This document shows, in pieces, positions 29,318 to 64,000 of a DNA stretch of 64,000 bases. A model generated the notes under the pieces. It did not search any database. It saw nothing but the letters and a program-made list of their open reading frames with translations, and was not told the DNA's origin. The position numbers and the translations under genes were made by a program. Where the stretch lies: NCBI RefSeq assembly GCF_001952855.1, contig NZ_LPNO01000003.1, positions 47,503 through 111,502 of the forward strand, in the 5' to 3' direction. Each line of letters starts with the position of its first letter. Within the stretch, counting starts at the first letter, position 1. The DNA comes from Pseudomonas sp. ATCC PTA-122608 (GTDB lineage Bacteria > Pseudomonadota > Gammaproteobacteria > Pseudomonadales > Pseudomonadaceae).

Positions 29318-29393
29318 GTGCCTAAAACCCAGCAAAATCAAGGCTTTTGGGTCTACCGGCGTCCATGGACGTCCGGCACAATCCACGACATCG

Positions 29394-29443: not shown

Positions 29444-29465
29444 AATTGATGTCATGGAACACCTC

Positions 29466-36969: not shown

Positions 36970-37400
36970 AAAAGGCTTCCTTTGCGTTTGCAGCGAGTCA
37001 GCATGTGAGCTGGCGCATGGCCGTCGACGGTAGCAAAATGCCATAATCTCGTCCACGTCGGCTTCGCAGGGATCTTCATGATCGACCTTGCAAGTCCCAA
37101 CTAAAGCTTGTCTGCCCCATGCCGATATCGTGCAGTAGATCTCTCTCGCAGGCACTCACGCCTACACGCACAAGGAAGTTGCGAATGTCTGTGGCCATTC
37201 TGATTTATCCACGCCTCATCTCTCTTCTCGTACCCCGCTGCCCTGCCGCTGAACGACTGGCCACAACCCGGCTGACTTCCCGGTGAGTACTACACACCGC
37301 TGCTCATACGATCCAGATGTCGCGCACGACACAATATGTCGTGGGCATGTTCGACATTTACTTGTCTTGTTTTACATCTGAACCAGCGAGAGATATCCCC
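36970..37400. other. Divergent regulatory region between helicase and dynamin operons
   Basis: A 431-bp gap with no supported gene. It must contain the promoters of both divergent operons and holds a perfect CGACA-N5-TGTCG operator 58 bp before the 140-aa gene. No convincing sigma-70 boxes stand out. Confidence 0.6.
37325..37343. promoter_or_regulatory. Island operator site 1 (CGACA-N5-TGTCG)
   Basis: CACGACA-CAATA-TGTCGTG, perfect 7-bp arms (core 37327-37341). It lies 58 bp upstream of the 140-aa gene that leads the dynamin operon. The same core recurs at 45380, 49213 and 56647. Confidence 0.75.
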
Positions 37401-37894: not shown

Positions 37895-39652
37895 ATGTTG
37901 AAAACCCAAAGCACCTACCTCAACTATCTGAAATCCATTCTGCCGCTCATTGTAGAAACCTCGATTCAGCCCGATGAGGTGACGCGGCTGCAGAACGATA
38001 TCGAACATACCGAACTGCTCGTCCCCGTCATTGGTGCGTTCAGCGCTGGCAAGAGCAGCTTGCTGAACGCTTTCCTTGGCGAAAACGTCCTGGGTATTGG
38101 CCTGACACCCGAAACCGAGTTGGCCACTGAGTTGCGTTACAGCAATGACCCGCATCTGCTGGCTATTCGCCTGGATGGCGGCAGTGAACGCCTGGACGTC
38201 AGCGCTATTGCCGGTATCAAGACTCGCGCCAAAGAATTCACCCACCTTCAGTTGTACCTGGATAACCCGCGACTCAAAGCCTCGCCCTCACTGGTGCTGG
38301 TTGACATGCCCGGGTTCGGCTCCTCATTGGCCAACCACAACAAAGCAATCGCGTACTACCTGCCCCGCGGCGTGCACTTCATCGTGGTGACCAGCGTGGA
38401 AGACGGCAACATCACTCAGTCGATGTTGCGTCAACTGGATGACCTGCAGACTTACGGGCGTGATTTCACCTTCCTGCTGAACAAGGTCAACCTGCGCTCG
38501 GACGAGCAAGTGCAAGAAGTCGCGGAACTGGTCGACGAGCAGATCCGGATTAACTTTGTCGACACGCGTCCCCTGGTCAAGGTAGGACTCGATGGTGATG
38601 CCCGGCTAGGCGAAGTGCTTGCACGCCTGCAACCCGAACAAATCGTTCGCCAGGTGTTTGAAGATCGATTGAAAGATCTGACCCATTCGCTGCTTAGCCA
38701 GATCAACCTTGCGCTGACCTCACTGAAAAAGAACCAGGCCGAAAATCAACATGCCCTGAGCGAGCTGGCCAATGGTATTCGACAGATTGAGCGCAAACGC
38801 GACGGCATTCTGGAAGACCTTCGCGACAAGCAGCTGGACCGCGCTGTAGATAGCTGCCTCAATGCTGTCGGCCGTGAACTTGATAATGCTCAGTCGGAAT
38901 TGGTCAGCGCCGGCCTGGCGGGTAATCAGGACGCTTTCTCGCGGATCGTATCTGAAGTGGTTCGAAGCTCGATGACCCGTACTATCAAGGAGCAGATGGA
39001 CATTCTCAGCCGCTCAGTCGTCACCGACTTTGCTCAAGCCGTGGGTGACCTAGGCAAAAGCATGGGCCAGTTCAGCAGTGATCCTAACTGGCTGGACCAG
39101 ATCACCGACAGGATCAACCGCACCCTGCAAAAAACCGGAGAGACCCTGGGCCATTGGAGCAAATCGCTGGCCGACCGCAATACACACGAACTGGAAAGAC
39201 TGAAAAAAGAAGGCGGCTGGAAGGAAGGAAACCCGCTACCCAGAGTGAGCTATCAAGGCCTGGCCACCGTGCTTGCAGTCACTACGTCGGTAGTCAATCC
39301 GCTGATCGAGTTGGCCATCATCTTTCTTCCCCAGATTCTGGCCTTCTTCAATGAGGGGCGCCAACGCGAGCAACTCCGGCAAAAAGTGATCAATGAAATC
39401 ATTCCTTCGGTTAAACGGGAATTGCGGGATCGTCTGCCCGTTTTGCTCGCCGAACAGATGGAAGTGCTGGTGACACAAGTCAGCGCGGAGTTCGAGCGCG
39501 AAATCGGTGAAAAGCAGAAGCTCATTGATGAACTGGTCGCCAGTCGCAATCACGATGCCGAGGCCTCCGAGCATCAGATCGCGCTGCTGACCCGCGCCAG
39601 AGAACAACTGCAACAACTCGCCAAACAAGCCCTCTACGAGTCGCAGCAATGA
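37895..39652 (+). CDS. Dynamin-like GTPase 1 with hydrophobic membrane segment
   Basis: A 585-aa dynamin-family GTPase. G1 is GAFSAGKSS (residues 47-55), G2 lies in TPETELATELRY near 71, G3 is VDMPGFGSS near 137 and G4 is LNKVN near 193. A helical stalk follows. A strongly hydrophobic stretch near residues 452-485 (TVLAVTTSVVNPLIELAIIF) could be a membrane paddle. A coiled coil closes the protein. The next gene starts inside its stop (ATGA). The three-dynamin layout recalls LeoABC/Eleos. Confidence 0.88.
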   Translation: MLKTQSTYLNYLKSILPLIVETSIQPDEVTRLQNDIEHTELLVPVIGAFSAGKSSLLNAFLGENVLGIGLTPETELATELRYSNDPHLLAIRLDGGSERLDVSAIAGIKTRAKEFTHLQLYLDNPRLKASPSLVLVDMPGFGSSLANHNKAIAYYLPRGVHFIVVTSVEDGNITQSMLRQLDDLQTYGRDFTFLLNKVNLRSDEQVQEVAELVDEQIRINFVDTRPLVKVGLDGDARLGEVLARLQPEQIVRQVFEDRLKDLTHSLLSQINLALTSLKKNQAENQHALSELANGIRQIERKRDGILEDLRDKQLDRAVDSCLNAVGRELDNAQSELVSAGLAGNQDAFSRIVSEVVRSSMTRTIKEQMDILSRSVVTDFAQAVGDLGKSMGQFSSDPNWLDQITDRINRTLQKTGETLGHWSKSLADRNTHELERLKKEGGWKEGNPLPRVSYQGLATVLAVTTSVVNPLIELAIIFLPQILAFFNEGRQREQLRQKVINEIIPSVKRELRDRLPVLLAEQMEVLVTQVSAEFEREIGEKQKLIDELVASRNHDAEASEHQIALLTRAREQLQQLAKQALYESQQ

Positions 39653-41886
39653 ACGCACAACACGTCCTGGATCTGAACCAACGTCTCCATCAATGGATGG
39701 AAAAGTACAACCCGGAGCTGGAAAAAGACATCGCTCAATGGCTGCGCAAGCATGCCATCGACCGCAGCGAATATCTGGAAAAAGCCTTCGCCAAGCTGGT
39801 CGAGGAAAATCGTCTGCTGCAGATCGGTGTCGTGGGGCGAGTCAAGGCCGGCAAATCCTCATTGCTCAATGCCCTTATTTTCGACGGTCACGCCATTCTC
39901 CCGCGGGCGGCCACTCCGATGACCGCGGCGCTGACCACCCTGACCTATGGCGATACATTCGGCGCTGAAGTCCAGTTCTACAGCGAGGATGACCGAAAGA
40001 ACATCGAGCAAAACGCCCTGCGGTATGAGCAACGACTTCGCGAAGAAAAGTCTCGCGCCCACGAAACGCTGAGCCAGCGCCGTCAGCGCAGTGGCCGACA
40101 CGTAGAAGACGAGCAGTTCCATGCTGACGTCGAGAAAACGGCCCGGCGAGCCCTGCAAGGGGAACATGCGCTGGCGGCTGCCCATGACCAGTGGCAGAGC
40201 ATTCGCAGCTCCAATGTCGATTTCAGATCCCTCGACAGCCTGGGTCGCCTGCAGGCAACTGATGCTCAATCATTAGCCGACAAGTTGCTCGACTATGTCG
40301 GCGTCGGCGGCAACTACATGCCGTTGACCAAAAGCGTCGATATCTTCCTGCCGCTGGACTCGTTGCGTAACGTGCGCATCATTGACACCCCGGGCCTGAA
40401 TGACCCCGTGCAATCCCGCGAAGAACGCACGACAGCCTTGCTCAAGAATTGCGATGTGGTCTTTATCGTCAGCCCTGCCGGCCAGTTTCTTAGTGAGCAG
40501 GACATCGAGATGATGAGCCGGATCACCCAGAAAGAGGGTGTCCAGGAACTGGTGTTGATCGCCAGCCAGGTCGATAACCAGCTGTATGGCAGCGACACGC
40601 GTCAACCCACACTTCAGGGATCGCTGGACAAGATCACCCAGACGCTCAGCGTACACATGGTCGATACCCTGCAACGCTTGAAGGTCCAGCATCCGGAGAT
40701 CGGTGCGACTTTCGACAACTTAATTGATAAAGGCGCCGGCAAGGTCCTGCATACCTCAGGCATGTGCCACAGCCTCTCGGTACGTTTTGGCCAACAGAAC
40801 GAATGGGACAGTGGCGAGCAGAAGGCGTGGGAAAACCTTAAAGCAAATTACCCTGACTTCTTTACGCCAGAGCATGCCGAACGCTGCCGAGGCAATCTGG
40901 ACCTGCTAGCCAACACCGAAGCGTTGCGGGCGGTGCTGGACAGCGTGCGTGCGCAGAAGGACCGCATTATCGAAGATCGACACGAGGAGCTCATTCGCGC
41001 CAAGTCCTCGGCACTGGAAGCGTTCCGGGCCGACTTGCTGAACTTTACCCAGGCCAAGTATCAGGAAGTCCGCAATGCCGATATTGAAGACCTGAAGGCT
41101 CAGCGGCGCAAGCTGGACAGTCTGATGGTAGTGGGCACCTACGAGCTCGATAGCGTATTGAACAATTGCGCAAAAGAGTTTTGCGAGGATCTGAAAAAGG
41201 ACCTCACAAAGGAACTTGAGTCTGCCTATCGCTCCACGCTTAAGGAAGTCGGTGCATCAGCTACTGAAGAGGAGAAATCCAGAGAGGTGGTGCGCGACAG
41301 CATCGTGGCAAAATTTGCCAACTGGGGTTGGGGGGGCGGCACGGAAACTCACCACTACACCGTATTCAAGTTGTACTGGCGCCAGGTCTGCAACGAGCTG
41401 GAGGAGTTTGCCGAAGGTCTGACAGGCAACCTGAAGAGCACAAGCGATGCCCTGACCAAAAAGTTTCGCGATAACCTGGTCAAGGAGTCGACTTCAGTCG
41501 CCAGGCGTCACCTTGGTGATGATCTGGACACGGCGTTGATCATCCGAACCAACCAGGGTCTGGCTGCCCGCCTCAAGCTCCCTGTCTTTGAACTCAGCAG
41601 CCAGGAACTCAGCAAACTCAAAGGCACTGGCAGTTACCTGTTGGACGATGAGGCACGAGATTTCCTGCACAAAGCCCGGCATCTTCTGGACGACCTCAAG
41701 GGACAGGCCAAAAAACAAATCCGTCATTTGATGGATGACGTGACTGAAAAGCTTCCAGACTCCTACGGCAGCGCATTTTTCCAAGATATGCAGGCGCGGA
41801 TGGAACAGCTGGAAGAACAGGTCGAAAATGCTCTTCTGACCCTGGACCGCCTGCAACGCATGGCCAAGGAACTGGAGGCGGCATGA
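39649..41886 (+). CDS. Dynamin-like GTPase 2
   Basis: A 745-aa dynamin-family GTPase. G1 is GRVKAGKSS (residues 63-71), G2 lies in RAATPMTAALTTLTYG near 86, G3 is IDTPGLNDPV near 245 and G4 is ASQVDNQ near 305. A long insertion rich in charged residues (about 110-180) sits between G2 and G3, as in other bacterial dynamins. The rest is helical stalk with a Gly/Trp loop NWGWGGGTE near 560 and a C-terminal coiled coil. No obvious transmembrane span is present. ATGA overlaps couple it to both neighbours. Confidence 0.87.
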   Translation: MNAQHVLDLNQRLHQWMEKYNPELEKDIAQWLRKHAIDRSEYLEKAFAKLVEENRLLQIGVVGRVKAGKSSLLNALIFDGHAILPRAATPMTAALTTLTYGDTFGAEVQFYSEDDRKNIEQNALRYEQRLREEKSRAHETLSQRRQRSGRHVEDEQFHADVEKTARRALQGEHALAAAHDQWQSIRSSNVDFRSLDSLGRLQATDAQSLADKLLDYVGVGGNYMPLTKSVDIFLPLDSLRNVRIIDTPGLNDPVQSREERTTALLKNCDVVFIVSPAGQFLSEQDIEMMSRITQKEGVQELVLIASQVDNQLYGSDTRQPTLQGSLDKITQTLSVHMVDTLQRLKVQHPEIGATFDNLIDKGAGKVLHTSGMCHSLSVRFGQQNEWDSGEQKAWENLKANYPDFFTPEHAERCRGNLDLLANTEALRAVLDSVRAQKDRIIEDRHEELIRAKSSALEAFRADLLNFTQAKYQEVRNADIEDLKAQRRKLDSLMVVGTYELDSVLNNCAKEFCEDLKKDLTKELESAYRSTLKEVGASATEEEKSREVVRDSIVAKFANWGWGGGTETHHYTVFKLYWRQVCNELEEFAEGLTGNLKSTSDALTKKFRDNLVKESTSVARRHLGDDLDTALIIRTNQGLAARLKLPVFELSSQELSKLKGTGSYLLDDEARDFLHKARHLLDDLKGQAKKQIRHLMDDVTEKLPDSYGSAFFQDMQARMEQLEEQVENALLTLDRLQRMAKELEAA

Positions 41887-43991
41887 AGACTGAATTGTTT
41901 CCGCCGGCGCTGATGACCCAACTGGACAAACTCGGCCAGTTGTTCATCCGGCGTCGCAAGCTGCTGCGTGACGGTGTGGTCGAAACACTCCAGGCTGCGG
42001 ATGATCAGTACGATGCGTTGACCCGACAATATCAGGGCACAGTGGCGCGTTTTGAGGCGCTGACCGCCGACCATAGGCAACTGACCGAGCGCCAGGCCAG
42101 CACCGCCGCCGAGCTGACCGACACCCGGCAAGCCTTGCAGGGGGTGCAGCAGTCGCTGGAGCAGGCCAATACTGAGCATATGCATGCTCAGCAGACAGCG
42201 CGGCTACGCTTCGACACCTTGTCGACGCGTCATGCGCAACTGGTGCAGGAACGTAACAGCATTGAAGACGCTCGCCAGGTCCTCGAACAAAACATCGAGC
42301 AAGCGCGCCTTGAACTGCAAGCCGGTGCCGAAGCGCTCAAGACGGCGGATGAGCGTCACGAGGCACTGACCCAAGAGCACCAGAACACCCTGGAACGCCT
42401 TGAAACACTGACAGCGGAACATGGACAACTGACCGAGCGTCAGGCCAACACCGCTGCCGAGCTGACCAACACCCGGCAGACACTCGAAGGTATGCAGCAG
42501 TCGCTAGAAGATGCCATTGACCAGCATCAGCGCGACCAGGAACAGGCCCGCGAACGCTTCGACAACCTGTCGATGCAACATGCCCGACTCGAACAGGAAC
42601 GCAACACCATAGAGTCGCAACGCCAGGCTCTTGAGCAGACGCTGGAACAGATGCGCCTGGAACTGCAGGTCAGCCTCAAGGCGCACGAAACACTGCAGCA
42701 GCGCCATGAAGAGGAACAACAACAGCACGCTCAGTTGGCGGACGAGTTTCAGGCGTTGAATCAACGCCACGGGGACACCTGGACGCGCTTCCAGCTCATC
42801 TCCCGGCTGCTCGCCGCTCGCCCACGGGAAAGTGCTAGCCTGGCCCGTTTCAGAGAGTTGCTGGCGAACGATTACATGGTGTTCGCAGACAATGAATCGT
42901 CCCTGGCTGCTGAAGCCAAGGCCCTCACGATGTTGCAGTCGATCCAGCAGGAACTGGCCTTACTCGTAGGCTTTCCAGACGTTCATGAGCGCACCATCGT
43001 CGGCATTGTCGGTGGCTTCAGCAGCGGCAAGTCCGAGTTCATCAACAGTTTTATCCGTGATCCAGAAGTACGCCTGGCAGTCGGCATGCAGCCAGTTACC
43101 GCGATCCCTAGCTACGTGCTGGCGACTGACGAGCGGATGATTCGCGGGTACTCGGCAAACGGCGGCCATATCAACCTGGATGTGGACTTCTACAAAAGCA
43201 TTTCCCATGCCTTCATCAACTCATTCAGCTTCGACTTGAAGAGCTTGATGCCATTCATGTGTGTGGGTGTTCAGATGGACCCTGAATACTTCCGCGACAT
43301 TTGCTTCATCGATACCCCCGGCTATAACCCACCGGCGACGGCAGCCGAACACAGCCAGGGTGACAAACGCACCGCCATCCAGTTTGCGCAGCAGTCCGAC
43401 GCGATCATCTGGCTGATCGGCCTGGATTCCAACGGCACGGTGCCTGACTCAGACCTGGATTTTATCCAGCAGATCGGCGTCGAGCAGCGGCCGGTGTATA
43501 TCGTTTTGACCAAGGCCGACCTCAAGTCCGAAGACGACATCGAGTACGTCATGGATGAGGTCCAGGACATCCTGCAATCGGAGGGAATTTCGGTTGTCGG
43601 GATCAGCGCATACAGCTCTACCCTGCGCAACGAAGTGGCTTATCGCGACGTACCGCTGCTGGAGTTTTTTTCCCAGATCAACCAGCAGGGTGATGCACGG
43701 CAGCATCTGGATGGGCGTCTGCGGGAGGTTTTCTCGATGTATGACGAAGCCATCAAGGCGGATATCGCCACGATACGCGCGCAAAAAACAGCCATTAACG
43801 GACTTCGGCTCGACAGCCTGGAAATTGGTGGCAAGGACGTCTACGAGCGAATGCTCGGCCCCATCGATAAGCTCGACAGCAAGCTGGACATCGCGCCTCT
43901 GGAGCGCTGGCTCAAGGAGTCACGACGACTGTTCGAGGCCTTCAGCGATGCGGTTCGGCTGACCGCAGAAATACCTGAAACAGAGGTGTGA
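41883..43991 (+). CDS. Dynamin-like GTPase 3 with N-terminal coiled-coil repeats
   Basis: A 702-aa protein with an unusual order. Residues 30-290 are coiled coil containing two tandem copies of a 116-residue unit (residues 39-154 and 155-270), each with LTERQA(S/N)TAAELT and a Leu/Gln/Glu-rich helix. The GTPase domain follows: G1 GGFSSGKSEF near 377, G3 DTPGYNPP near 477 and G4 LTKADLKSEDD near 541. A short helical end completes it. Carrying the coiled coil before the GTPase rather than after it is atypical. It may tether or space the other two dynamins. Confidence 0.85.
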   Translation: MKTELFPPALMTQLDKLGQLFIRRRKLLRDGVVETLQAADDQYDALTRQYQGTVARFEALTADHRQLTERQASTAAELTDTRQALQGVQQSLEQANTEHMHAQQTARLRFDTLSTRHAQLVQERNSIEDARQVLEQNIEQARLELQAGAEALKTADERHEALTQEHQNTLERLETLTAEHGQLTERQANTAAELTNTRQTLEGMQQSLEDAIDQHQRDQEQARERFDNLSMQHARLEQERNTIESQRQALEQTLEQMRLELQVSLKAHETLQQRHEEEQQQHAQLADEFQALNQRHGDTWTRFQLISRLLAARPRESASLARFRELLANDYMVFADNESSLAAEAKALTMLQSIQQELALLVGFPDVHERTIVGIVGGFSSGKSEFINSFIRDPEVRLAVGMQPVTAIPSYVLATDERMIRGYSANGGHINLDVDFYKSISHAFINSFSFDLKSLMPFMCVGVQMDPEYFRDICFIDTPGYNPPATAAEHSQGDKRTAIQFAQQSDAIIWLIGLDSNGTVPDSDLDFIQQIGVEQRPVYIVLTKADLKSEDDIEYVMDEVQDILQSEGISVVGISAYSSTLRNEVAYRDVPLLEFFSQINQQGDARQHLDGRLREVFSMYDEAIKADIATIRAQKTAINGLRLDSLEIGGKDVYERMLGPIDKLDSKLDIAPLERWLKESRRLFEAFSDAVRLTAEIPETEV
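41997..42692 (+). repeat. Tandem 348-bp coding duplication in dynamin 3
   Basis: Two in-frame copies (41997-42344 and 42345-42692) encode 116-aa coiled-coil units that align throughout, for example LTERQASTAAELT against LTERQANTAAELT. The copies have diverged, so the duplication is not recent. Confidence 0.8.
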
Positions 43992-44071: not shown

Positions 44072-44410
44072 ATGTCAGGCAGCGCATTTGAAAAGGATTA
44101 CTCAGACGACTCGTTCTGGGACAAAGTAAAAAACTATGCGAAATCCGCCGGCGAGGCAGCACTGGAACCGGCGTTGAAGATGTACTACGCCGCAACCGAC
44201 TCAGATACCCCGACCTGGGCAAAAACCACCATCTATGGTGCGCTCGGCTATTTTATCTCTCCGATCGACGTCATACCCGACATCACGCCAATCGTGGGCT
44301 ATTCCGACGACATCGGTGTTTTGTGCGCAGCGTTGGCAGCGACCGCTACCCATATCAAAGCCGAACACGTGGCTAAGGCGAAGGAAACATTGAATCAGTG
44401 GTTTTCCTGA
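44072..44410 (+). CDS. YkvA-family (DUF1232) small membrane protein
   Basis: A 112-aa protein. The DUF1232 core is ALGYFISPIDVIPDITPIVG near residue 57 followed by YSDDIGVLCAALAAT. This family usually has one or two short membrane-inserted segments and occurs both in core genomes and in defence islands. AGAG precedes the ATG. It is 80 bp after dynamin 3 and ends in a strong hairpin, so it is probably the last gene of the dynamin transcript. The mechanism is unknown. Confidence 0.85.
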   Translation: MSGSAFEKDYSDDSFWDKVKNYAKSAGEAALEPALKMYYAATDSDTPTWAKTTIYGALGYFISPIDVIPDITPIVGYSDDIGVLCAALAATATHIKAEHVAKAKETLNQWFS

Positions 44411-44534: not shown

Positions 44535-45185
44535 ATGGATTACCAAACCCTCAAGGCGCGTCACCGACTTGAACGCGACAACCATCACGTTAACCTGACA
44601 TTGCGTGTACACCGATCCTTGAGCTGGTTGCAACGCGCCGAACAAGCTGACGATCCGGACGGTCGCTTCGTGTTCCTATGGATTGCCTTCAACGCCGCTT
44701 ACGCAACTGACATCGACGAGAACTATCGGCTATCCGAACAGGAAACCTTCCGCGCCTTTCTGCGCAAGCTTTGCGATCTGGATCGCGAACGGCAGATAGA
44801 GAAACTGGTCTGGTCCGAGTTTTCGGGAAGCATCCGCGTGCTGCTGGATAACCCGTACGTTTTCCAGAGCTTCTGGGATCATCAGAACGGCAAGATCACC
44901 GAGCAACAATGGAGCGAGCGTTTCGCCGACGGCCGACGCAGAGCGCAGTCTGCCCTGGCACAACGCGATACCGCCGATGTACTTGCGGTGCTTTTCAATC
45001 GCATCTACACCCTGCGCAATCAAATCATGCATGGCGGTGCGACCTGGGATAGCAGTATCAACCGACCACAATTGCGCGATTGCGGCAAACTGCTCGGCAA
45101 GCTGGTGCCATTGATTATCCATCTGATGCTGGAAAATCCCGATACGCTCTGGGGTGACGCCTGCTATCCAGTCGTGCAGTCCTGA
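44535..45185 (+). CDS. HEPN-like protein with RN-x3-H motif
   Basis: A 216-aa helical protein. The segment TLRNQIMHGGATW (residues 159-171) matches the R-x4-6-H RNase motif of HEPN domains in Apea/Abi-type proteins. The preceding FVFLWIAFNAAYA near residue 47 is the first HEPN helix commonly seen in the same families. A toxin-like RNase role is therefore plausible but not shown. The ATG at 44535 is chosen as the first with family-like sequence; only a weak ribosome-binding site is visible. Its stop faces that of microprotein A, 13 bp away. Confidence 0.75.
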   Translation: MDYQTLKARHRLERDNHHVNLTLRVHRSLSWLQRAEQADDPDGRFVFLWIAFNAAYATDIDENYRLSEQETFRAFLRKLCDLDRERQIEKLVWSEFSGSIRVLLDNPYVFQSFWDHQNGKITEQQWSERFADGRRRAQSALAQRDTADVLAVLFNRIYTLRNQIMHGGATWDSSINRPQLRDCGKLLGKLVPLIIHLMLENPDTLWGDACYPVVQS

Positions 45186-45198
45186 GTGTCAGGGTTAA

Positions 45199-45330
45199 TC
45201 AATCCCTGCCACTGGCTGCCTTGCGCCAAACATCGTTCTCTCGCTCCATCTGCTTGTACTTCTGGTAAAGATCAAAGCTCTTTTTGAGTACCACGACCAA
45301 ACCCACGGTTGCCAGTACGTTCTTTAGCAT
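45199..45330 (-). CDS. Microprotein A (43 aa, single membrane span)
   Basis: A short reading frame on the minus strand: MLKNVLATVGLVVVLKKSFD then YQKYKQMEREND and a basic end. Residues 3-15 are hydrophobic, followed by KK and an amphipathic charged tail. GAGAGATGG lies just before the ATG. It is clearly related to microprotein B at 49003-49122 (shared pattern M-x-KN-x2-A-x2-G-x2-VVV-KK, then Y-x2-M). The promoter region contains operator site 2, shared with the divergent AAA gene. The conservation between the two copies makes it a real gene despite its size. Confidence 0.75.
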   Translation of the reverse strand: MLKNVLATVGLVVVLKKSFDLYQKYKQMERENDVWRKAASGRD

Positions 45331-45377
45331 TGCCCATCTCTCTGGTCCATTTTGTGGATTTCAGATTAAGACTCAGG

Positions 45378-45396
45378 CACGACAGATTGTGTCGAG
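45378..45396. promoter_or_regulatory. Island operator site 2 (CGACA-N5-TGTCG)
   Basis: CACGACA-GATTG-TGTCGAG (core 45380-45394, perfect 5-bp arms) in the divergent gap between microprotein A and the AAA gene. A degenerate copy, CGACA-CATTT-TGACC, lies 45 bp downstream at 45425-45439. Confidence 0.75.
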
Positions 45397-45485
45397 CCTG
45401 GATCATCACTGGCCACAATTACCACGACACATTTTGACCACCCCTCGCCCCATCCTGTCGCCTCCACAGCATCAGGACATTCAGC

Positions 45486-47576
45486 ATGGGAACCCGCCTC
45501 ACCCCCTTCGCCCACGACAGCCGCCGCGCTTGCGACACTTGTGCACTCTCGCTGAAGTGGAGTTTCCAACTGCTGCTGGACCTGGGGGGGCATCGGAATT
45601 TAATCAGTCGACATGGGTTCAACGATGATGATCTGGCCCGTGGGCTAGGCCTGGCTAAATGGGTAGACCGAGACGAGTACAGCCCGCTGCAGGCCTTATC
45701 GGCCCTGCGTCGAGCCGCTCGCGCTTTCGAGGCAAGCCATCCGGATACCCCCTACCCGGATCGCCTGGGGAGCAATCTTGAAGCATTGGGGACTTTATTG
45801 GGGCTGGGAGAGTCAGAGTTGCGGGTACTGGGGTTCTGCGTACTGATTCATATCGACCCGGTGCTCAGTGATGCTACCGATCAGTTGGGCATGGTGGGAT
45901 TCAATCGCGCCATGAAAGTGCTGGCGGTATTGTTGGGCCTGGAGCTCCCCGAGGTCGAGGCTTGCCTGGCGAGTAACAGCCCCCTGATCCGGGCAGGCTT
46001 GCTGGAGGTGGGGAGCAATTCCCGCGCCTCTACAGCGCTGAGCTCGATGTTATCGGTGAGCAATCAGGAGCTTCCTGGACTGCTGCGATTCAGCAAGGGC
46101 ACATCGCTGGAGTTGTTTGCTTATGCCTTCCGTCTGAGTCCGCCAGGCAGCCTGAGCCTGGAGCACTACCGACACATCAAGCAGCCACTGAACATCGCTG
46201 AACGCTACCTGGCCAAAGCCTTGGCACAGGGCCGTCAAGGCGTAAACATTCTGCTTTATGGCCCACCAGGCACCGGCAAGACTCAGCTCAGTCGACTGCT
46301 CGCAAAGAGCCTGAACAGCGCGCTTTATGAAGTGGCCTGCACGGACAGCGATGGCGACCCCGTGCAGGCAAAACAGCGCCTGTGTTCCCTGCGTGCAGCC
46401 AATAGCGTACTGCGCTCGCAGCGGGCCCTGCTCGTACTGGATGAGATTGAGGACATCTTTCAAACCTCCAGCACCGACACTCATAGCCGCTCGCAGAAGG
46501 GTTGGATCAATCGCATGCTGGAGGAGAATGCGCTGCCGTGTTTCTGGTTGAGCAATAGCATTGAGGCTATCGACGCGGCACATATACGTCGCTTCGATCT
46601 AGTGATCGAGATCCCCAACCCGCCCTTGGCGCAGCGCAAACAGATGCTGCGTGAGTGTGGCGGGGGCAAGTTGAGTGATCAGTTGATCGAGCACCTCAGT
46701 GCCCATGAACAAGTAACACCGGCGGTGCTGGAGCGAGCCGTGCGAGTAGGCCGCAGCGTAGGAAACCGCGCGAGCAAGACGCTGGATACGACGATCCGTT
46801 GCATCGTCGACGGAACGTTGAAAGCACAGGGTCTCGAGAAGCTGCAACATGACGGCGGTAGCAGCTTGCCCACCTTCTACTCTCCGCAATGGATCAACGC
46901 AGACCATGCTCTTGACGGCCTGGTTGACGGACTACGTGTCCATCCCCAGGCACGCCTGTGCTTCTACGGTCCGCCAGGCACCGGTAAAACTGCCTTTGGC
47001 CAATGGCTGGCGCAAGAGCTGGGCAAGCCGTTGATGGTCAAGCGCGTCTCCGACCTGGTTTCACCCTATGTCGGAATGACGGAGCAGAATCTGGCGGGCG
47101 CCTTCGAGCGCGCACAACAGGAAGACGCAGTGCTGCTGCTCGATGAGGTTGACAGTTTTTTGCAGGACCGGCGCAAGGCGCGGCAGAGCTGGGAAGTGAC
47201 CGCGGTCAATGAAATGCTCACGCAAATGGAGAGCTATCAAGGGCTGTTCATTGCCTCGACAAACCTGATCCGAGACCTGGACGAGGCTTCCTTGCGGCGC
47301 TTCGATCTGAAGGTACATTTCGGCTACCTGGCCACCGCCCAGGCCCAGGCGTTATTTGCCGCACACTTGAAAGCGCTGGCCTTGAAAGACCCGCAGCACA
47401 GCGCAGCTAATCGCTTGCGAGGTGAGGCGCATCTGACCCCGGGTGACTTTGCGGCAGTGGCGCGCCGAGGGCGTTTCAAGCCATTCGCCAGTGCCGACGA
47501 GCTGGCGGAGGCGTTGCTGGCCGAGTGCCGGCTCAAATCCGCCGGGCAGCAGCGCCCAATCGGTTTCATACATTAA
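45486..47576 (+). CDS. Tandem AAA+ ATPase
   Basis: A 696-aa protein with two AAA modules. The first has Walker [16 protein letters not shown] near residue 257 and Walker B LLVLDEIEDIF near 317. The second has [15 protein letters not shown] near 494 and LLLDEVDSFLQDRR near 550, then SRH-like NLIRDLDEASLRRFDLK. Both retain the catalytic Glu. The N-terminal 230 residues are helical and unassigned; CDTCALSLKW near residue 16 might bind metal. Cdc48/FtsH-like remodelling of a protein target is inferred. It has operator sites upstream and the WYL regulator gene downstream. Confidence 0.88.
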   Translation: MGTRLTPFAHDSRRACDTCALSLKWSFQLLLDLGGHRNLISRHGFNDDDLARGLGLAKWVDRDEYSPLQALSALRRAARAFEASHPDTPYPDRLGSNLEALGTLLGLGESELRVLGFCVLIHIDPVLSDATDQLGMVGFNRAMKVLAVLLGLELPEVEACLASNSPLIRAGLLEVGSNSRASTALSSMLSVSNQELPGLLRFSKGTSLELFAYAFRLSPPGSLSLEHYRHIKQPLNIAERYLAKALAQGRQGVNILLYGPPGTGKTQLSRLLAKSLNSALYEVACTDSDGDPVQAKQRLCSLRAANSVLRSQRALLVLDEIEDIFQTSSTDTHSRSQKGWINRMLEENALPCFWLSNSIEAIDAAHIRRFDLVIEIPNPPLAQRKQMLRECGGGKLSDQLIEHLSAHEQVTPAVLERAVRVGRSVGNRASKTLDTTIRCIVDGTLKAQGLEKLQHDGGSSLPTFYSPQWINADHALDGLVDGLRVHPQARLCFYGPPGTGKTAFGQWLAQELGKPLMVKRVSDLVSPYVGMTEQNLAGAFERAQQEDAVLLLDEVDSFLQDRRKARQSWEVTAVNEMLTQMESYQGLFIASTNLIRDLDEASLRRFDLKVHFGYLATAQAQALFAAHLKALALKDPQHSAANRLRGEAHLTPGDFAAVARRGRFKPFASADELAEALLAECRLKSAGQQRPIGFIH

Positions 47577-47591
47577 CCAGACTAAAGGTTG

Positions 47592-47622
47592 CCGGGTTGT
47601 CGCCGATAGGCAGACAACCCGG
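47592..47622 (+). terminator. Hairpin between AAA and WYL genes
   Basis: CCGGGTTGTC / GACAACCCGG 10-bp arms, 15 bp after the AAA stop, followed by AAAATTC rather than a T run. It may attenuate rather than stop transcription into the WYL gene. Confidence 0.5.
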
Positions 47623-47671
47623 AAAATTCGCTAGCCACAGGCCAGCTTCAACACTACAAGGATGATTTCTC

Positions 47672-48703
47672 TTGCCATCAGCCAAGACCCATACCGCGTT
47701 GAGTCGTCAATGGGAGTTGCTGCAACAGCTTCCCAAACGCGCCCCTGGTATCACAGTGAGTGAGTTGCTGACCCGCCTGACGAGCGCAGGCTACTCCATC
47801 AGCCGCCGCAGCATCGAGCGCGACCTGCGTGACCTGTCCCTGGTGTTTCCGTTGCAGTGCAACGATGGAGGAACGCCCTTCGGTTGGTATTGGAAACCGG
47901 GCGTGAGCGTCGAGTTGCAGGGCATCACCTTGACTGAAGCCGTAAGTCTGGCGCTGGTCGAAGATGCCGTGCGCCCGCTACTTCCGGGCAGCATGTTGAG
48001 CGTGCTGGAACCGCGCTTTGAGCATGCCCGGCAAAAACTCAAAGGCCTCGAAGACGGCAACCCCGCCGCCCGCTGGCCCGACAAAGTTGCGAGCGTTCGG
48101 CCGGATTTCAATCTTCGAGCTCCGGAAATCCAGGCAGAAACGTTGGAGGCACTGCAGCACGCCCTGATCAGCGAGCAGCAAGTTCATTGTCAGTATTACT
48201 CGGCACACACCGACAAACTCAGCGAACTGACTCTCAACCCCCTCGCGATTGTCCAGCGTGGGCTGATCACCTATCTCATCGCCACCGCTGCGCCCTATAC
48301 CGATGTCCGTCAGTTCGCGGTGCATCGCTTTCGCGCGGTAACGGTACTCGACACGCCGTGCCAAGGGCTGGATACGTTCGAACTGCAAACCTACCTGGCC
48401 ACCGACGCCTTGCAGTTTGGCAAACCGGAGAAAATCCGGCTCAAGGCCTGGGTGAGCGAACACCAGGCAAGGATGATTCGTGAAACGCCCTTGAGCACGG
48501 ACATGGTGCTGGAGGTGCTGACGGATGGTTTTCAGGTGCAGGCGACCGTCAACAATACCTGGCAGCTGCACTGGTGGATTTTGTCTTTGGGTGATTCGTT
48601 GGTCGTGCGGGAACCGCCGGAGTTGCGCCAACAGATGGGAGACACACTGCGGCGGGCGGCTGCAGCGTATGAGCATGAGGAAGGCAAGGCGAGCCTGGTG
48701 TAA
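47672..48703 (+). CDS. HTH-WYL transcriptional regulator
   Basis: A 343-aa regulator. The N-terminal DeoR-like winged helix has GITVSELLTRLTSAGYSISR and the recognition segment RRSIERDLRDLSLVFPL (residues 25-70). A WYL domain spans about 165-235 (LNPLAIVQRGLITYLIAT and VRQFAVHRFRAVTVLD). A WCX dimerisation domain follows to about 335. The start is TTG at 47672 with AAGGA 10 nt upstream. It lies 95 bp after the AAA gene. It is one of two candidates for the protein that reads the CGACA-N5-TGTCG sites. Confidence 0.88.
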   Translation: MPSAKTHTALSRQWELLQQLPKRAPGITVSELLTRLTSAGYSISRRSIERDLRDLSLVFPLQCNDGGTPFGWYWKPGVSVELQGITLTEAVSLALVEDAVRPLLPGSMLSVLEPRFEHARQKLKGLEDGNPAARWPDKVASVRPDFNLRAPEIQAETLEALQHALISEQQVHCQYYSAHTDKLSELTLNPLAIVQRGLITYLIATAAPYTDVRQFAVHRFRAVTVLDTPCQGLDTFELQTYLATDALQFGKPEKIRLKAWVSEHQARMIRETPLSTDMVLEVLTDGFQVQATVNNTWQLHWWILSLGDSLVVREPPELRQQMGDTLRRAAAAYEHEEGKASLV

Positions 48704-48750
48704 CTCGCCAGGAGGGCTCCAGCCTGGCGGATCAATGCACTTTGCCGACT

Positions 48751-48951
48751 CTAGCGAAGCGGTCGCGCCAGCCTGGCCTTGAAAATTTCCAGACGCGTAG
48801 CCGGCCGGACATCCAATGCAGTGTGTCGGCATGAGGGGCAATTGGAAAACCAGTCGATCCCCTCACGCAGCGCATCGCTGGGCGGCACCGTTGTTTTTTT
48901 CCAGTGGCATTGGGGGCAGGTGAAAGTGAAGGGATGGGGCGGCCAAGGCAT
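48751..48951 (-). CDS. Small zinc-ribbon protein
   Basis: A 66-aa protein with two CxxC knuckles, TCPQCHWKK near residue 11 and NCPSCRH near residue 38, spaced as in a zinc ribbon. The tail is basic (RLEIFKARLARPLR). It lies 51 bp downstream of microprotein B on the same strand and is probably cotranscribed from the promoter with operator site 3. The function is unknown; RNA, DNA or protein contact is possible. Confidence 0.7.
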   Translation of the reverse strand: MPWPPHPFTFTCPQCHWKKTTVPPSDALREGIDWFSNCPSCRHTALDVRPATRLEIFKARLARPLR

Positions 48952-49002
48952 GGAGATAACCCGTCAGTCGTAGAAAAATAAAATCGTCGACGCTACACGG
49001 CG

Positions 49003-49122
49003 TCAGGCCGAATCACCGGCGCGTTTGTCCAATTCCTGTTTCATCTCGTTGTATTCACGGAAGAACTCGTAGCCTTTTTTTACAACGACGATGACGCCAA
49101 TAATTGCGAACAGATTTTTCAT
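49003..49122 (-). CDS. Microprotein B (39 aa, single membrane span)
   Basis: The frame reads MKNLFAIIGVIVVVKKGYEF then FREYNEMKQELDKR. A hydrophobic N-terminal span is followed by KK and an amphipathic charged tail. AAGGGA lies 9 nt before the ATG at 49120-49122. It is a diverged paralogue of microprotein A (45199-45330) with the same length class, topology and upstream operator. An in-frame extension to 49218 has no ribosome-binding site and would cover operator site 3, so the short form is preferred. Confidence 0.75.
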   Translation of the reverse strand: MKNLFAIIGVIVVVKKGYEFFREYNEMKQELDKRAGDSA

Positions 49123-49210: not shown

Positions 49211-49229
49211 GGCGACAAGACGTGTCGTG
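49211..49229. promoter_or_regulatory. Island operator site 3 (CGACA-N5-TGTCG)
   Basis: CGACA-AGACG-TGTCG (core 49213-49227), 90 bp upstream of microprotein B and downstream of the 186-aa gene on the same strand. It shows that microprotein B has its own regulated promoter. Confidence 0.75.
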
Positions 49230-50379: not shown

Positions 50380-51984
50380 TCAGTTCAGTGGCAAAGGAGT
50401 TGCGGCCCTAGGAAGCTCTACTGATTCTGAATCTGTGCAGCCCCTTGCAAAGGGTTTTAACACCGCTTGCAATCCGTTGTGTTCAACGCTCAGCACCGCG
50501 ACGCCAACCCCATTGGCTTTCTGGTACGTCATCGTCTCCAACAAGGGAGCACCTCCTGCACGAGGCACCAGCAATATCGATAAATCCGGCTTGCGGCCCT
50601 TCCAGCGCAAGCAGTCCCGGTACAAATGCGCAGACACCATGCCCTCCAGCACCCACTTGCGCTCAACCCGGTACTTGGCGTCCATCACAAGGAACGAGCT
50701 CCCCGCCGGGCTTTCCACGGTGACAACAATGTCGGGGTAACGCGCCCCGGAAATGCTGGAAAATCCGTGACTAGCTCGCTGGTCGAACGCTGGACAGTGT
50801 ACCTGCAGCCAGACATCGACCTGTGTATCGATACCTCGCCCGGTACAACGTATGTAGTCCAGACTCGTGCCGGGCCAACGATCACGCCACTGCAGGTCGG
50901 GATAGATCGACTTCATCATGGCCACCACCTGGAGGTAGCACCAACGCTCGTATATCTCCCATGTCGGGCTGATCCATAAGCGCTCTCCCTCGCTACTGCC
51001 GTCAATACCAGGACGCAGCACGTACCATCCATGACGATAGGCCCGAGCGTAAGCAGGATGAGCGGAAACCGCGTTGAGCCCGGCAGCGGAAATTCGAGGC
51101 TGGCGCAGAGAGCAGAACGGCTCCCTGCGTTGAATTCTACGAAGGTCACTTTGCAAGCCTTCGAGGAACTCGATCCGCCGTCCAAGCCGAGGAGTCAACG
51201 CGGAGCGAGCCCCCGTATCGCCCTCCCCATCAATGATCTTTTGCAAGGCGGCAATGACGTAACGGCTGCGTCGCAGGATTTCGCCAAGGACAACAGCCAA
51301 CGCCTGATTGGCCGGATTATCGAGGTCCTCGAACACAGTGGGCACATCAAAGTGCAACACCTCACCGCTGGTATTGGCCTGTTCGAGGTTATAGAGCAAC
51401 GCCGTCGCCGCAGGGTCTTGCAAGGCGCGTCGCAGGGTCTGGCGATCAATACGACGCAATTGATGCGCTGGCCGTAATGTTCGCTCTCGGTGCAGCCGTG
51501 TCAGCGGCTTGCGCAAGACTTCGATAAACGCTGACAACAACGCCGGGCCATAACGTTTCAGTCGGGCATATTGCAGGTGCGGGTTGCTGGTCAGACCTTC
51601 ACGACCCACCTCCAAACGGGCGTATTCGTTGCCCATCAGCAAACGTATATCGAAGGCAAGGAGCTCGTCGAACATCGCGGCAAACGAAGTCTCGCCGAGC
51701 TTGTTTTGATCCGGAGCCACATCAAAGTGGTAGCTCGCTAAAACCTTGCCGTCAGTATCAATCAACTCAGCGACGACTTTGCCCGCATAAAAACCCGGCT
51801 CCCATCGCCATGCATCAAATGCCTCATGGCGCGAGCTCTCCAACGGTTCATCATCAACAAACAAGCGGGACTCGGGGACAATCTCGAAATAATAAGTGCC
51901 GCGCTCCATGAACCCCGAAGCCAAGGCTTCGGGGCTGACGTTAAACATGCTGCCTTGTTTGTCAACGCATCGGATAATCGCCAT
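50380..51984 (-). CDS. McrC-like protein, DUF2357 with PD-(D/E)XK nuclease
   Basis: A 534-aa protein. The N-terminal beta-rich DUF2357-like region is followed by a helical middle. The C-terminal nuclease fold has ARYPDIVVTVES near residue 414 and FLVMDAKYRVER near residue 430, the D...DxK pattern of PDDEXK_7. This is the partner type usually found with McrB-like motors, where it cuts DNA. The start is 3 bp after the McrB-like stop. Modified-DNA specificity cannot be read from the sequence. Confidence 0.85.
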   Translation of the reverse strand: MAIIRCVDKQGSMFNVSPEALASGFMERGTYYFEIVPESRLFVDDEPLESSRHEAFDAWRWEPGFYAGKVVAELIDTDGKVLASYHFDVAPDQNKLGETSFAAMFDELLAFDIRLLMGNEYARLEVGREGLTSNPHLQYARLKRYGPALLSAFIEVLRKPLTRLHRERTLRPAHQLRRIDRQTLRRALQDPAATALLYNLEQANTSGEVLHFDVPTVFEDLDNPANQALAVVLGEILRRSRYVIAALQKIIDGEGDTGARSALTPRLGRRIEFLEGLQSDLRRIQRREPFCSLRQPRISAAGLNAVSAHPAYARAYRHGWYVLRPGIDGSSEGERLWISPTWEIYERWCYLQVVAMMKSIYPDLQWRDRWPGTSLDYIRCTGRGIDTQVDVWLQVHCPAFDQRASHGFSSISGARYPDIVVTVESPAGSSFLVMDAKYRVERKWVLEGMVSAHLYRDCLRWKGRKPDLSILLVPRAGGAPLLETMTYQKANGVGVAVLSVEHNGLQAVLKPFARGCTDSESVELPRAATPLPLN

Positions 51985-51987
51985 GTT

Positions 51988-54252
51988 TCAGCGCCAGAAC
52001 CGGGCGGAACCCAAAGAACGCAAATCATCCAGCAACTCGCCGACTTTGGTTGCCGATTCCTCCAGCTTCATATCCCGCAACAAGGTACGGCTGTCTGCGA
52101 ATGCAGCCTGAACCCGAGGTGTGTCTTCACCGCGCAGTTTGGGCAGGACTTTGGCGTAGATGGCTTGATCCAGTGCCGCATCAAAATCAATCACACCGCC
52201 GCGTCCGGCCTGCTCGATGTAACCAATGACATCGTGGATGGTGCGCCAACCGAAATGCAGGCGTGCCGGGCGCAAGGCCTTGACCAGCCCCTTGAGCGTG
52301 TCACGGACTTTGGTAATTTTTGCCTCAGGCAAAGCACTGGTTTTCCAGCCGGGGAACGCTTCAACGTCGATCTCCCAGAACTCAATCACTGCCGCCCGGT
52401 CGAGCACCTTGTCGCTCAGGCCGTGTGTCGTTTCATCCATATTCACGGTACCAATGATCACCAGGTTACTCGGGTACGTGATGGTCGCCGGCACGCCGCT
52501 GATGTCATTATCCTGAGCATGGAGCTCAATGTGGCCACCTGTCTCCATGGCCGAAAGCAGCGGTGCCAGATATTGCTCCGGGTGCGACAGGTTCATTTCG
52601 TCCAGCACAACCGTATATGGACGTTCGGAGTCGGCACTGGCCCTAAGCAGGAAATCGATGAATGCAGTGCGTACGTAGCTCTCGCTATTCAATGGATTGA
52701 CGTAACCCAGCAGGCAAGAGGGATCATGCCAGCCAGGCTGGACAGGGACTGTAAGCAGTCCCTCTGATGGCTGGCTTTGCCCCTCGTGCAACGCCAGCGC
52801 ATAACCCCGAGCCAGTACCGTTTTACCGGCGCCACTGAGCCCGGTAAGGACAGCAAAATGGCGGCGCGGATGACTCCAGAGTCCTGCATCAAGACGAGCC
52901 ACCAGGCTGATCGGAAAGGCGATATCTTCGGGAAAACTACGCTGGATGGTTTCCAGCGAGGGACGCTCAAACGGCACAGCGTCGCCACTGGATGGCACCA
53001 GGCTGGTTGAAACAGCCACAGGGTCTGGAGTAAGTGATTGGGGTTCCCAGTGGATTTGCGCTGCCCAGGCCTCACCGAGCTCGGTCAGGTGCTGCAGTTT
53101 GTCTGCACGGGTTTCGACCAATTGCAGGGCACGCAGCCAAAAGGTCAAACTGGTCAATGCCCGATCGCTGGTCCACCCGGTGTTTACCTTTCTCAACGCT
53201 TCATTCAACGCACTGACGGACATTGGAGCGCTGTGCAATGCATAGAGCATGTGATCAAACCCAAGAACGCGGGTCAGCAGCCAGTCCGATACTTCATCAG
53301 GCTCGCCAGTCTCCAGCAGTCCCTCACCTCGCGGCGTCAGATAGATCTCGTCGCCTAGAGCACGCAGAACACCCCATTCGGCAATGAGTGAGTTGAGTTG
53401 CGTTCGGATACTCGACGTCGCGTGACTTGGGTTGATCGAGCGCATGTGCTCCACCAGGTCTTCTCGTTTGCACCCTTCTTTGGCGAACTCAATGATCGCC
53501 CTGATGGTCGCGATACCACCACCAATGGCGAGCATGCCTCGGCGGCGACGCTCAGCAGGTAATGGATTCAAGCGCTCCTGGCCTGTTGTGGGGTCAGCGA
53601 TCTCCGTGGCTTCGGCTTCCTGCTCCTGTACGAATTTCCTGTAGAGCAGCCAAGGCAGAGTCATGCGCTCCAGCGACGGAGTTGACAGTCCTTTTTCCCG
53701 CTTACCCAAAACATCGTCCAGACGCTCAAGCACACGCTGATGCAGAGAAAGCTCACGCTCTGCGCTTCCCACACCTATCAACGACGCCAAAGTACGCAAT
53801 TTCGGATAGTGCGCAAGCGTGGTCAGTTCAGTTGGGCACAGCGCGGCGAACAGACGATATTTTTTAAGCCGAGGGTTGCGCCGTACAAGGGGTGGGGCCA
53901 CTAGTTGGTTCAACTCGCGCCAGCCTTCCTTGAGCACTTGATCATGAAGGTGAGCATCACCCGTTTTAAGCGATGCCCGAATACTCCAAAGGCATTTGGC
54001 GACGAGAGGGTCGGCGATTACCTCGGACACCTTGACCGTTCCCATGCCCGTTTTAGTGATGACCTCACTTTCCCATAGCTGCTCCTGAAACGCGGGGCTG
54101 CAAAACTCGTCTTGATCGGCGTCCTGAACCTTGCGCAGGAACTCCGACAGCTTTTTCAACCAGTTTTGATACCACGACAACTCACGATGCTGAGCCAACA
54201 CTGCTTCACAGGCTGCCTTGAGATTTGCGTCATCCTTCAGATCTACCGCCAC
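51988..54252 (-). CDS. McrB-like AAA+ NTPase
   Basis: A 754-aa protein. Its AAA domain has Walker A LTGLSGAGKTVLARG near residue 468, Walker B VLDEMNLSHPEQY near 545 and IGTVNMDETTHGLSDKVLDR near 598. The last lies at the McrB NTAD position but with altered residues. The N-terminal 430 residues differ from the E. coli McrB methyl-binding domain; they contain winged-helix-like segments (around residues 240-400). A GTG start at 54250-54252 has AGGGG upstream. It leads an operon with the McrC-like nuclease and two membrane proteins. Confidence 0.85.
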   Translation of the reverse strand: MAVDLKDDANLKAACEAVLAQHRELSWYQNWLKKLSEFLRKVQDADQDEFCSPAFQEQLWESEVITKTGMGTVKVSEVIADPLVAKCLWSIRASLKTGDAHLHDQVLKEGWRELNQLVAPPLVRRNPRLKKYRLFAALCPTELTTLAHYPKLRTLASLIGVGSAERELSLHQRVLERLDDVLGKREKGLSTPSLERMTLPWLLYRKFVQEQEAEATEIADPTTGQERLNPLPAERRRRGMLAIGGGIATIRAIIEFAKEGCKREDLVEHMRSINPSHATSSIRTQLNSLIAEWGVLRALGDEIYLTPRGEGLLETGEPDEVSDWLLTRVLGFDHMLYALHSAPMSVSALNEALRKVNTGWTSDRALTSLTFWLRALQLVETRADKLQHLTELGEAWAAQIHWEPQSLTPDPVAVSTSLVPSSGDAVPFERPSLETIQRSFPEDIAFPISLVARLDAGLWSHPRRHFAVLTGLSGAGKTVLARGYALALHEGQSQPSEGLLTVPVQPGWHDPSCLLGYVNPLNSESYVRTAFIDFLLRASADSERPYTVVLDEMNLSHPEQYLAPLLSAMETGGHIELHAQDNDISGVPATITYPSNLVIIGTVNMDETTHGLSDKVLDRAAVIEFWEIDVEAFPGWKTSALPEAKITKVRDTLKGLVKALRPARLHFGWRTIHDVIGYIEQAGRGGVIDFDAALDQAIYAKVLPKLRGEDTPRVQAAFADSRTLLRDMKLEESATKVGELLDDLRSLGSARFWR

Positions 54253-56643: not shown

Positions 56644-56664
56644 GTGCGACATGATCTGTCGCAC
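56644..56664. promoter_or_regulatory. Island operator site 4 (CGACA-N5-TGTCG)
   Basis: GTGCGACA-TGATC-TGTCGCAC, perfect 8-bp arms (core 56647-56661), the best of the four sites. It lies 44 bp before the TTG start of the 224-aa gene and 80 bp after the BrxR-like stop. Confidence 0.78.
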
Positions 56665-57408: not shown

Positions 57409-57573
57409 ATGAAAACCTACAAAGCCTTTATGCAACGTGTGGTTGCCACCGCCGGCCCCCAAGCCAACTTCACCATCACGATTCAAGCGGTGACCTCTGC
57501 CATGGCAAAGGTCACCGCTGAAGCCCAGTACCCAGGCTACAAATGCCTGAACGCCCCCACTCAGGTGCGTTGA
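57409..57573 (+). CDS. Small unknown protein (54 aa), overlapping the recD end
   Basis: The frame MKTYKAFMQRVVATAGPQAN then TAEAQYPGYK has GAGGA 8 nt before the ATG. It looks like a small beta-alpha-beta protein; similar MKTYK...AQY proteins of unknown role are known to me from integrative elements, a weak comparison. It shares 13 bp with the convergent recD 3' end. It is the last island-like gene before recDBC. Confidence 0.6.
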   Translation: MKTYKAFMQRVVATAGPQANFTITIQAVTSAMAKVTAEAQYPGYKCLNAPTQVR

Positions 57574-63322: not shown

Positions 63323-64000
63323 TGGTCGCTCCCTGCGCGGCTCGAAGAAAGATGATTGAACAGGCCGCCATACAGGCGCTTGGCCCATGAGGTGAAATGA
63401 CCGGAGGCGCACAGTTGGTCGAAATCCGCGTACGCACGGCGCAAGGCGAAGGAGCTATCTGCCTCGCCAGAGCGCATGTACCCGCCCTCGAACGTCTCGC
63501 GGGCCTTTTCGGACGCCGAGTCGTTGTCTTCCCCGCCCTCCTTCGCTTCTTCGAGCCAGGCGAATGCGCTTTTACAGGCGATCGGCAGCGGTTCACGCAT
63601 GCCCGCCACCCAGGCCTCGAGCAGCGACTTCAACTGCTTCTGCGCGTCTTGCGGGGCCATTGGCCGGAACACCACGTCTCCATTCAAGCTGACCAGAATC
63701 GAGGTGCAGCCCGGCTCACTCAGCTGCAACGCCAGATGGCGCACCCAGGGACGAACCAGGTTGTGCCAGCGCCAACTGTCGTCGTTGCACAGCTTCTTGC
63801 TGTCCAGCTGCAAGTAGGCACGCTCACCTTGGGCATTGCGGCGAATACCGCCCAGCCAGTCACTCAATCCCGGGGCCGATTCGTGGGCGGCGATCGTTGC
63901 GGCGGTTTGGCCCTCCTCGACCTCCGGCCACGCCTGCAACTGCACGTGGTAACGCTCGAGCATATCCGGCAGCGGCTCGGCCAGGGCCGATGCGCTCAAC
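63319..64000 (-). CDS. recC: Exodeoxyribonuclease V gamma subunit RecC (C-terminal part)
   Basis: About 227 C-terminal codons are present; the gene continues beyond the right edge. The segment includes AWVAGMREPLPIACKSAFAW and the C-terminal FTSWAKRLYGGLFNHL, typical of RecC ends. RecC is the inactive-nuclease scaffold that recognises Chi. The stop overlaps the recB ATG. The assignment rests on sequence and on the recC-recB-recD order. Confidence 0.93.
   Translation of the reverse strand, partial: LSASALAEPLPDMLERYHVQLQAWPEVEEGQTAATIAAHESAPGLSDWLGGIRRNAQGERAYLQLDSKKLCNDDSWRWHNLVRPWVRHLALQLSEPGCTSILVSLNGDVVFRPMAPQDAQKQLKSLLEAWVAGMREPLPIACKSAFAWLEEAKEGGEDNDSASEKARETFEGGYMRSGEADSSFALRRAYADFDQLCASGHFTSWAKRLYGGLFNHLSSSRAGSDQ

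Follow-up and report, generated by a model that had tools for sequence, protein, structure and literature searches.

Two very short genes, Micro A and Micro B, in a 64,000-nucleotide (nt) stretch of Pseudomonas sp. ATCC PTA-122608 (contig NZ_LPNO01000003.1; the whole stretch is referred to here as the window) belong to an unnamed family of proteins of about 40 amino acids (aa) with the consensus LKNLLAAIGLVVVAKKGYELYREYSELKRE. This is a real coding family, so far found only in Pseudomonadaceae, that is under purifying selection, is associated with an inverted-repeat operator, CGACA-N5-TGTCG, and is linked to genes of WYL-domain regulators and to defence cargo. The role that we favour, with a confidence that is about evenly balanced, is that of a membrane-acting adaptor or trigger of a WYL-linked defence cassette under the control of this operator. 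An earlier note on this DNA had suggested that the two frames are membrane proteins of a dynamin/AAA system, perhaps sensors, triggers or holins, an interpretation that is partly supported by the results presented here. Proteins of fewer than 50 residues are easily overlooked in the annotation of islands.

A Conserved Family of Small Proteins

Both minus-strand frames that the earlier note had pointed out, of 43 and 39 aa, are present (Table 1). The residues described as shared between them are largely there, i.e., a hydrophobic stretch with VVV, then KK, Y-x2-M and a charged tail, except that Micro B begins M-K-N and not M-x-K-N. The two proteins are 36% identical, with 14 invariant positions in 43 aligned columns. 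Where good ribosome-binding sites had been noted there are stretches that resemble such sites, GAGAG (Micro A) and AAGGGA (Micro B), each 7 nt before the start, and the operators that had been read upstream are exact at both distances. A search of the whole genome with Micro B as query returned only Micro B and Micro A (expectation value, E, 1e-4) for E up to 10. Against Pfam, NCBIfam and PHROGs neither peptide gave a match over threshold (at most weak sub-threshold ones), and in the literature covered, which lacks most subscription journals, neither a title or abstract opening describing the family nor a paper with any of four peptide fragments was found.

Conservation in relatives had been named beforehand as the test on which the frames could fail. 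A model made from the two peptides found 35 places in 31 of 298 sampled Pseudomonas genomes, and a 36-member model found the family in 29 of 198 sampled genomes at the family level, belonging to 10 of 19 genera (the two samples overlap in part, and the genome of origin is counted in both). At E 0.001 no member turned up among the class sample's 368 other genomes. The phylum sample, searched at E 0.01, yielded matches in 13 of 398 genomes (the genome of origin not counted), with E between 4.4e-4 and 8.8e-3. Nine of these 13 cover only about the first 18 positions of the model inside frames of 83–257 aa. None of the 13 weak matches was accepted as a member, and we read them as chance or signal-anchor likeness.

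For the analysis of individual genes we used a set of 66 members, which omits loci L001–L032 (short pieces whose places were re-sampled), L040, L041 and L047, as well as rows that duplicated both peptide and upstream sequence. Four loci (L034, L035, L037 and L039) had entered through their AAA gene; the places of the first two were also found by peptide searches, while L037 and L039 were not, so that their neighbours count by construction. The consensus over the 66 members is LKNLLAAIGLVVVAKKGYELYREYSELKREKEEREKAAA, and residues K2, A6, G9 and V12 are invariant in a 36-row alignment. Only one member, in L118, is clearly shortened (25 aa).

The ratio of nonsynonymous to synonymous differences per site (pN/pS, uncorrected) was 0.26 over 25 non-overlapping close pairs, chosen closest first with pN < 0.25 and at least four differences, and 0.31 when 332 pairs were pooled, indicating purifying selection, even though individual pairs can be flat (L043 and L099, pN 0.034 and pS 0.037). 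A near-identical copy of Micro B in L042 differs by about four synonymous and two nonsynonymous changes. Two members in one locus recur in L100, L105 and L108, in agreement with the suggestion of selected, diverged copies under one operator type.

AlphaFold2 predicts a single helix over residues 2–38 (mean predicted local distance difference test score 87.8, predicted template modelling score 0.43). The longest uncharged run has a median of 11 residues (range 7–12). Mean net charge is about +1 on its N-terminal side and +1.4 over the next 15 residues, and about +2 for the whole protein. The predicted layout is a short hydrophobic N-terminal segment between lysines followed by a charged amphipathic helix. 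A location at the membrane is plausible. By the positive-inside rule a spanning helix would more likely place the C-terminal helix in the cytoplasm, and a short membrane-anchored helix with its C-terminal part on the cytoplasmic side is the arrangement that we would expect.

The Operator

An exact operator was found within 150 base pairs (bp) upstream of 29 of the 66 members, a number that rises to 38 when a single mismatch is tolerated. Base-shuffled upstream regions gave means of 0.005 (exact) and 0.295 (up to one mismatch) of 66, and for 150-bp stretches placed at random in the same loci the means were 0.57 and 0.93. The distance from operator to start is close to fixed, with a median of 46 nt and values of 42–61 nt in 31 of the 38 cases. 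The spacer is biased too, with C as its first base, in gene-ward reading, in 34 of the 38 sites. On either side the flanks lengthen the half-site toward GCGACA (preceded by G in 25 of 38 and followed by C in 31). The genome of origin contains six exact operators and also six copies of a reversed control pattern, and four of the six operators fall inside 19.3 kilobases (kb) at this island. Since the genome-wide count is not raised and the sites cluster at the island, the signal of the operator is in its place and not in its number. With two mismatches allowed the window has 31 sites against a shuffle mean of 35.85, so that only the exact sites of the window carry weight. In L071, L094, L104 and L118 the operator stands before a zinc-ribbon gene, which in turn is followed by the peptide gene. 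An inverted-repeat count upstream of the 28 members without an operator gave no second motif (best, 3 of 28).

As a separate observation, a variant of the operator, CGACAGATTATGTCG / CGACATAATCTGTCG, occurs once each in five genomes outside the examined loci (G000:C14:88664, G067:C1, G139:C1, G171:C1 and G191:C21), and is possibly one conserved core site.

WYL Regulators and Zinc-Ribbon Proteins as Partners

The commonest partner of the family is a WYL gene. Scored with a model built up from the window's two WYL proteins, 60 of the 66 members have one within 10 kb, 33 of them within 600 bp and 27 more at 0.6–10 kb. The closest arrangement goes together with the operator: a WYL gene stands within 600 bp of 28 of the 38 members with an operator and of 5 of the 28 without. 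In the genus sample (35 peptide places, 31 genomes) a WYL gene is found no more than 10 kb from 31 of the places, and two places have neither WYL nor Dynamin_N at that distance. Of the 78 WYL genes in these genomes, 38 are as close as this to a member, where about 0.36% would be expected. The pairing extends to subtypes. For all seven members that we call type A (Micro A and six others, with a YKxMExE tail), or 5 of 5 without L037 and L039, the best-matching WYL protein of the locus has an identity of 70% or more to that of the window. Of the 59 other members 2 show this, and a type A member is present on the island or contig of both.

The second recurrent partner is a relative of the 66-aa zinc-ribbon gene of the window, found within 600 bp of 29 of the 66 members. 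Among the 28 distinct hits with a recognised start (out of 49), 14 have the operator 39–51 nt upstream, exact in 12. These zinc-ribbon-like proteins are a second small family, often with the same operator, beside the peptide.

The closest published parallel is BrxR. This WYL regulator stands beside varied defence systems, and the regulated genes are preceded by its sites, inverted repeats whose halves are 5 bp apart (PMC9122601; PMC9122589). WYL proteins adjoining defence genes have also been noted in Pseudomonas (PMC10270631). The same two features, a regulator beside its putative target and an upstream inverted repeat with a 5-bp spacer, are found here, the repeat being exact at both genes of the window. 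The differences are that a frequent target is the gene of a helical protein of about 40 aa together with a zinc-ribbon gene, that the half-site is GCGACA and that binding is predicted.

Varied Defence Cargo

The genes beside the family are of several kinds: dynamin-like GTPases, sets resembling LeoABC, AAA genes, and matches to Bunzi BnzA, to the candidate systems PDC-M09A and PDC-M40B, to GmrSD and to HerA. One recurrent order is peptide, WYL, two dynamin-like genes, a gene of 244–296 aa and a HerA-like gene (L044, L055, L057, L058 and L063, the HerA match being checked on L057). Another is peptide, WYL and the cargo genes c19 and c18 (L049, L061, L067, L069 and L070), with no Dynamin_N within 20 kb; the cargo proteins of this type tested in L061 and L067 have no Pfam domain. 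LeoC-, LeoB- and LeoA-like genes occur together in L046, L048 and L064. In this respect the window, with its three dynamin-like genes, resembles LeoABC (Eleos) systems, but its genes match the Leo models only remotely or partly (Table 1). To our knowledge the peptide is not among the named components of Leo systems.

Of the 55 Dynamin_N matches in the 31 member-bearing genomes, 35 are no farther than 10 kb from a member, a zone that makes up about 0.36% of the genome. The total of 55 compares with 8 in 31 genomes without a member (G001–G007 and G009–G032, taken in order and not at random, none among the positives). One 645-base span accounts for 10 of the 55 and 6 of the 8, matches that look like one core gene; without them the comparison is 45 versus 2. 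Dynamins have been described in a Pseudomonas island hotspot (PMC12629846).

A partner of dynamin or AAA proteins as the sole role of the peptide was rejected, since the peptide also precedes WYL genes followed by cargo without Dynamin_N and three of seven strong relatives of the AAA gene have none in the 14–22 kb examined. Its membership in one dynamin/AAA system, as the earlier note had it, is not supported, since the commonest neighbour is the WYL gene, the cargo differs and these three relatives go without the peptide. With WYL as the commonest partner and the cargo variable, the peptides are accessory to a WYL-linked defence cassette, and it is with this cassette, and not with a single dynamin/AAA machine, that the family is best filed.

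Possible Roles

In the role that we favour, the operator is most likely bound by the WYL-domain repressors of the same island. Release of the repressor would lead to production of the small protein along with the defence cargo, and at the inner membrane the protein would act on membrane-associated defence proteins as their adaptor or trigger. A likeness in size and in the single hydrophobic segment is seen in KdpF, AcrZ and CydX, small bitopic proteins that are accessory to larger membrane complexes; the peptide, for its part, was found here only in Pseudomonadaceae.

Several observations weigh against this role. The uncharged run is short for a membrane-spanning helix. Six of the 66 members have no WYL gene within 10 kb; in L048, L065, L074 and L113 the contig ends inside the flank, in L060 and L112 it does not. 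For 28 members the 150 bp upstream contain no operator; going out to 700 bp brings one in for nine of them and leaves 19 without. In ten other genomes the operator was counted 64 times against 66 for the reversed control, i.e., without genome-wide excess. Dynamin_N lies within 10 kb of only 20 of the 35 peptide places. The AAA relatives without a peptide (L033, L036 and L038) lack it over the 14–22 kb examined. Finally, a profile comparison with 47 neighbour clusters of at least three members gave a best probability of 3.7% (1.1% for the LeoA cluster).

One rather unlikely but conceivable alternative places the peptide at the input of the cassette, as a membrane sensor. On damage to the membrane or entry of a phage it would signal to the WYL repressor, either directly or by way of the zinc-ribbon protein, and so derepress the linked cargo. 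The prevalence of WYL genes across unrelated cargo, half of the members having one within 600 bp, and the type A pairing are in line with it. However, the pairing was scored per locus, with the genes up to about 9 kb apart, and may reflect only joint descent of the cassette; in 27 members the WYL gene is found only at 0.6–10 kb and in six not at all; and basal expression would be needed for a sensor that its own target represses. In a broader form, which we hold to be unlikely, one membrane peptide would be the common trigger of unrelated Pseudomonadaceae systems (dynamin-like, Leo, Bunzi, HerA, AAA), sensing inner-membrane damage and, with its zinc-ribbon partner, freeing WYL repressors from one operator type, so that all are switched on by one signal. 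A conserved peptide and a zinc-ribbon protein that share the operator of different defence modules provide concrete parts with which questions of switching and of membrane action can be addressed.

More doubtful is a small membrane-damaging toxin or holin-like effector, held by the repressor and freed to halt growth during infection. Tiny size, a hydrophobic N-terminus and controlled expression are what phage holins and type I toxins have in common with the family, to which the net positive charge and the position beside defence genes can be added. In contrast, the family has a single short hydrophobic run and a long charged helix conserved under purifying selection, features that would argue against a classical holin. 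No Rfam match over the gathering score was found in positions 30000–64000 of the window, hence no known antitoxin RNA there, with an undescribed one possible.

We consider it improbable that the peptide is a membrane anchor or adaptor devoted to dynamin-like GTPases. The 20 places near Dynamin_N and the excess of Dynamin_N in member-bearing genomes would fit such a role, but the five loci with c19 and c18 have the peptide and the WYL gene without Dynamin_N, their tested cargo has no Pfam domain, and there is no profile similarity to the dynamin-like clusters compared. Chance or non-functional frames, for which the short length and the single shortened member could be invoked, are already contradicted by the breadth of the family, the pN/pS and the near-fixed operator distance, and we practically dismiss them.

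Searches for Kin Elsewhere

Hidden Markov model searches with the peptide gave weak matches (E 11–58) to C-terminal stretches of LeoA-like proteins and to the N-terminus of c78-type cargo. The idea that the peptide is a detached domain of a neighbour found no backing in the profile comparisons, which gave at most 3.7% (the 47 clusters) and, for six c78-type N-termini picked by motif, a non-significant 14%; c78 itself, with two members, was outside the 47-cluster comparison. The likeness of the c78-type N-terminus to the peptide is a lead. Cargo with an N-terminal AKKGYDGYQ(K/R)HSEAD after a hydrophobic run, in a peptide-like layout, was seen in L045, L050, L066, L095, L098 and L102, and the 14% refers to it.

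With one 37-aa member as query, plasmids gave no match and phages a single record, MT835507 (L130), an unverified faecal scaffold. Alongside a type A member and an exact operator it has an AAA gene that matches IetA models. Neither zinc ribbon nor WYL was found in the 10 kb examined, and the scaffold is perhaps a misassigned piece of a bacterial island. Six close members as queries found no relative in viral contigs, and none of 108 stretches of viral contigs with a stricter operator had a match to the peptide, zinc-ribbon or WYL model.

The Island in the Window

The island follows a transfer-messenger RNA gene (28884–29281) and, directly after it, a tyrosine integrase gene (29316–30719). No direct repeat of at least 15 bases of the 160-base stretch around the 3' end of ssrA was found in the window or in the remainder of the contig to the right, where it could mark the end of the island. 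The features discussed are listed in Table 1. The operator at the head of the dynamin genes falls inside a 168-aa frame counted from its first start, so that the true start of this frame is probably later.

Table 1. Positions of the small genes, operators and neighbouring genes, counted from the first base of the window.
Feature	Position	Strand	Remarks
Operator CGACACAATATGTCG	37327..37341		Head of dynamin genes
Dynamin-like GTPase 1	37895..39652	+	LeoA 1.1e-14
Dynamin-like GTPase 2	39649..41886	+	LeoBC 3.9e-9
Coiled-coil dynamin-like GTPase 3	41883..43991	+	
DUF1232 protein	44072..44410	+	
216-aa protein	44535..45185	+	Recurrent near peptide family; no Pfam domain
Micro A	45199..45330	-	43 aa, MLKNVLATVGLVVVLKKSFDLYQKYKQMERENDVWRKAASGRD; type A; exact operator 49 nt upstream
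Operator CGACAGATTGTGTCG	45380..45394		Exact; between Micro A (-) and AAA gene (+), same layout in L034
Double-AAA ATPase	45486..47576	+	Best PADLOC match IetA, AAA region only
WYL + WCX domain regulator	47672..48703	+	WYL 1.1e-14, WCX 1.4e-15; putative operator binder
Zinc-ribbon-like protein, 66 aa	48751..48951	-	CxxC...CxxC; downstream of Micro B; only sub-threshold zinc-ribbon matches
Micro B	49003..49122	-	39 aa, MKNLFAIIGVIVVVKKGYEFFREYNEMKQELDKRAGDSA; exact operator 90 nt upstream
Operator CGACAAGACGTGTCG	49213..49227		Exact; upstream of Micro B
Second WYL-domain protein, 291 aa	55688..56563	+	Recurrent near peptide family
Operator CGACATGATCTGTCG	56647..56661		Pattern match

Further along the island, on the minus strand, a PD-(D/E)XK/DUF2357 protein adjoins a 754-aa protein that matches the candidate defence model PDC-M26A (50380–54252), and a RecD-like protein adjoins a UvrD-type helicase with a PD-(D/E)XK domain (57561–63412). 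Both genes of the latter pair are kept in L033, and the RecD-like gene in L042.

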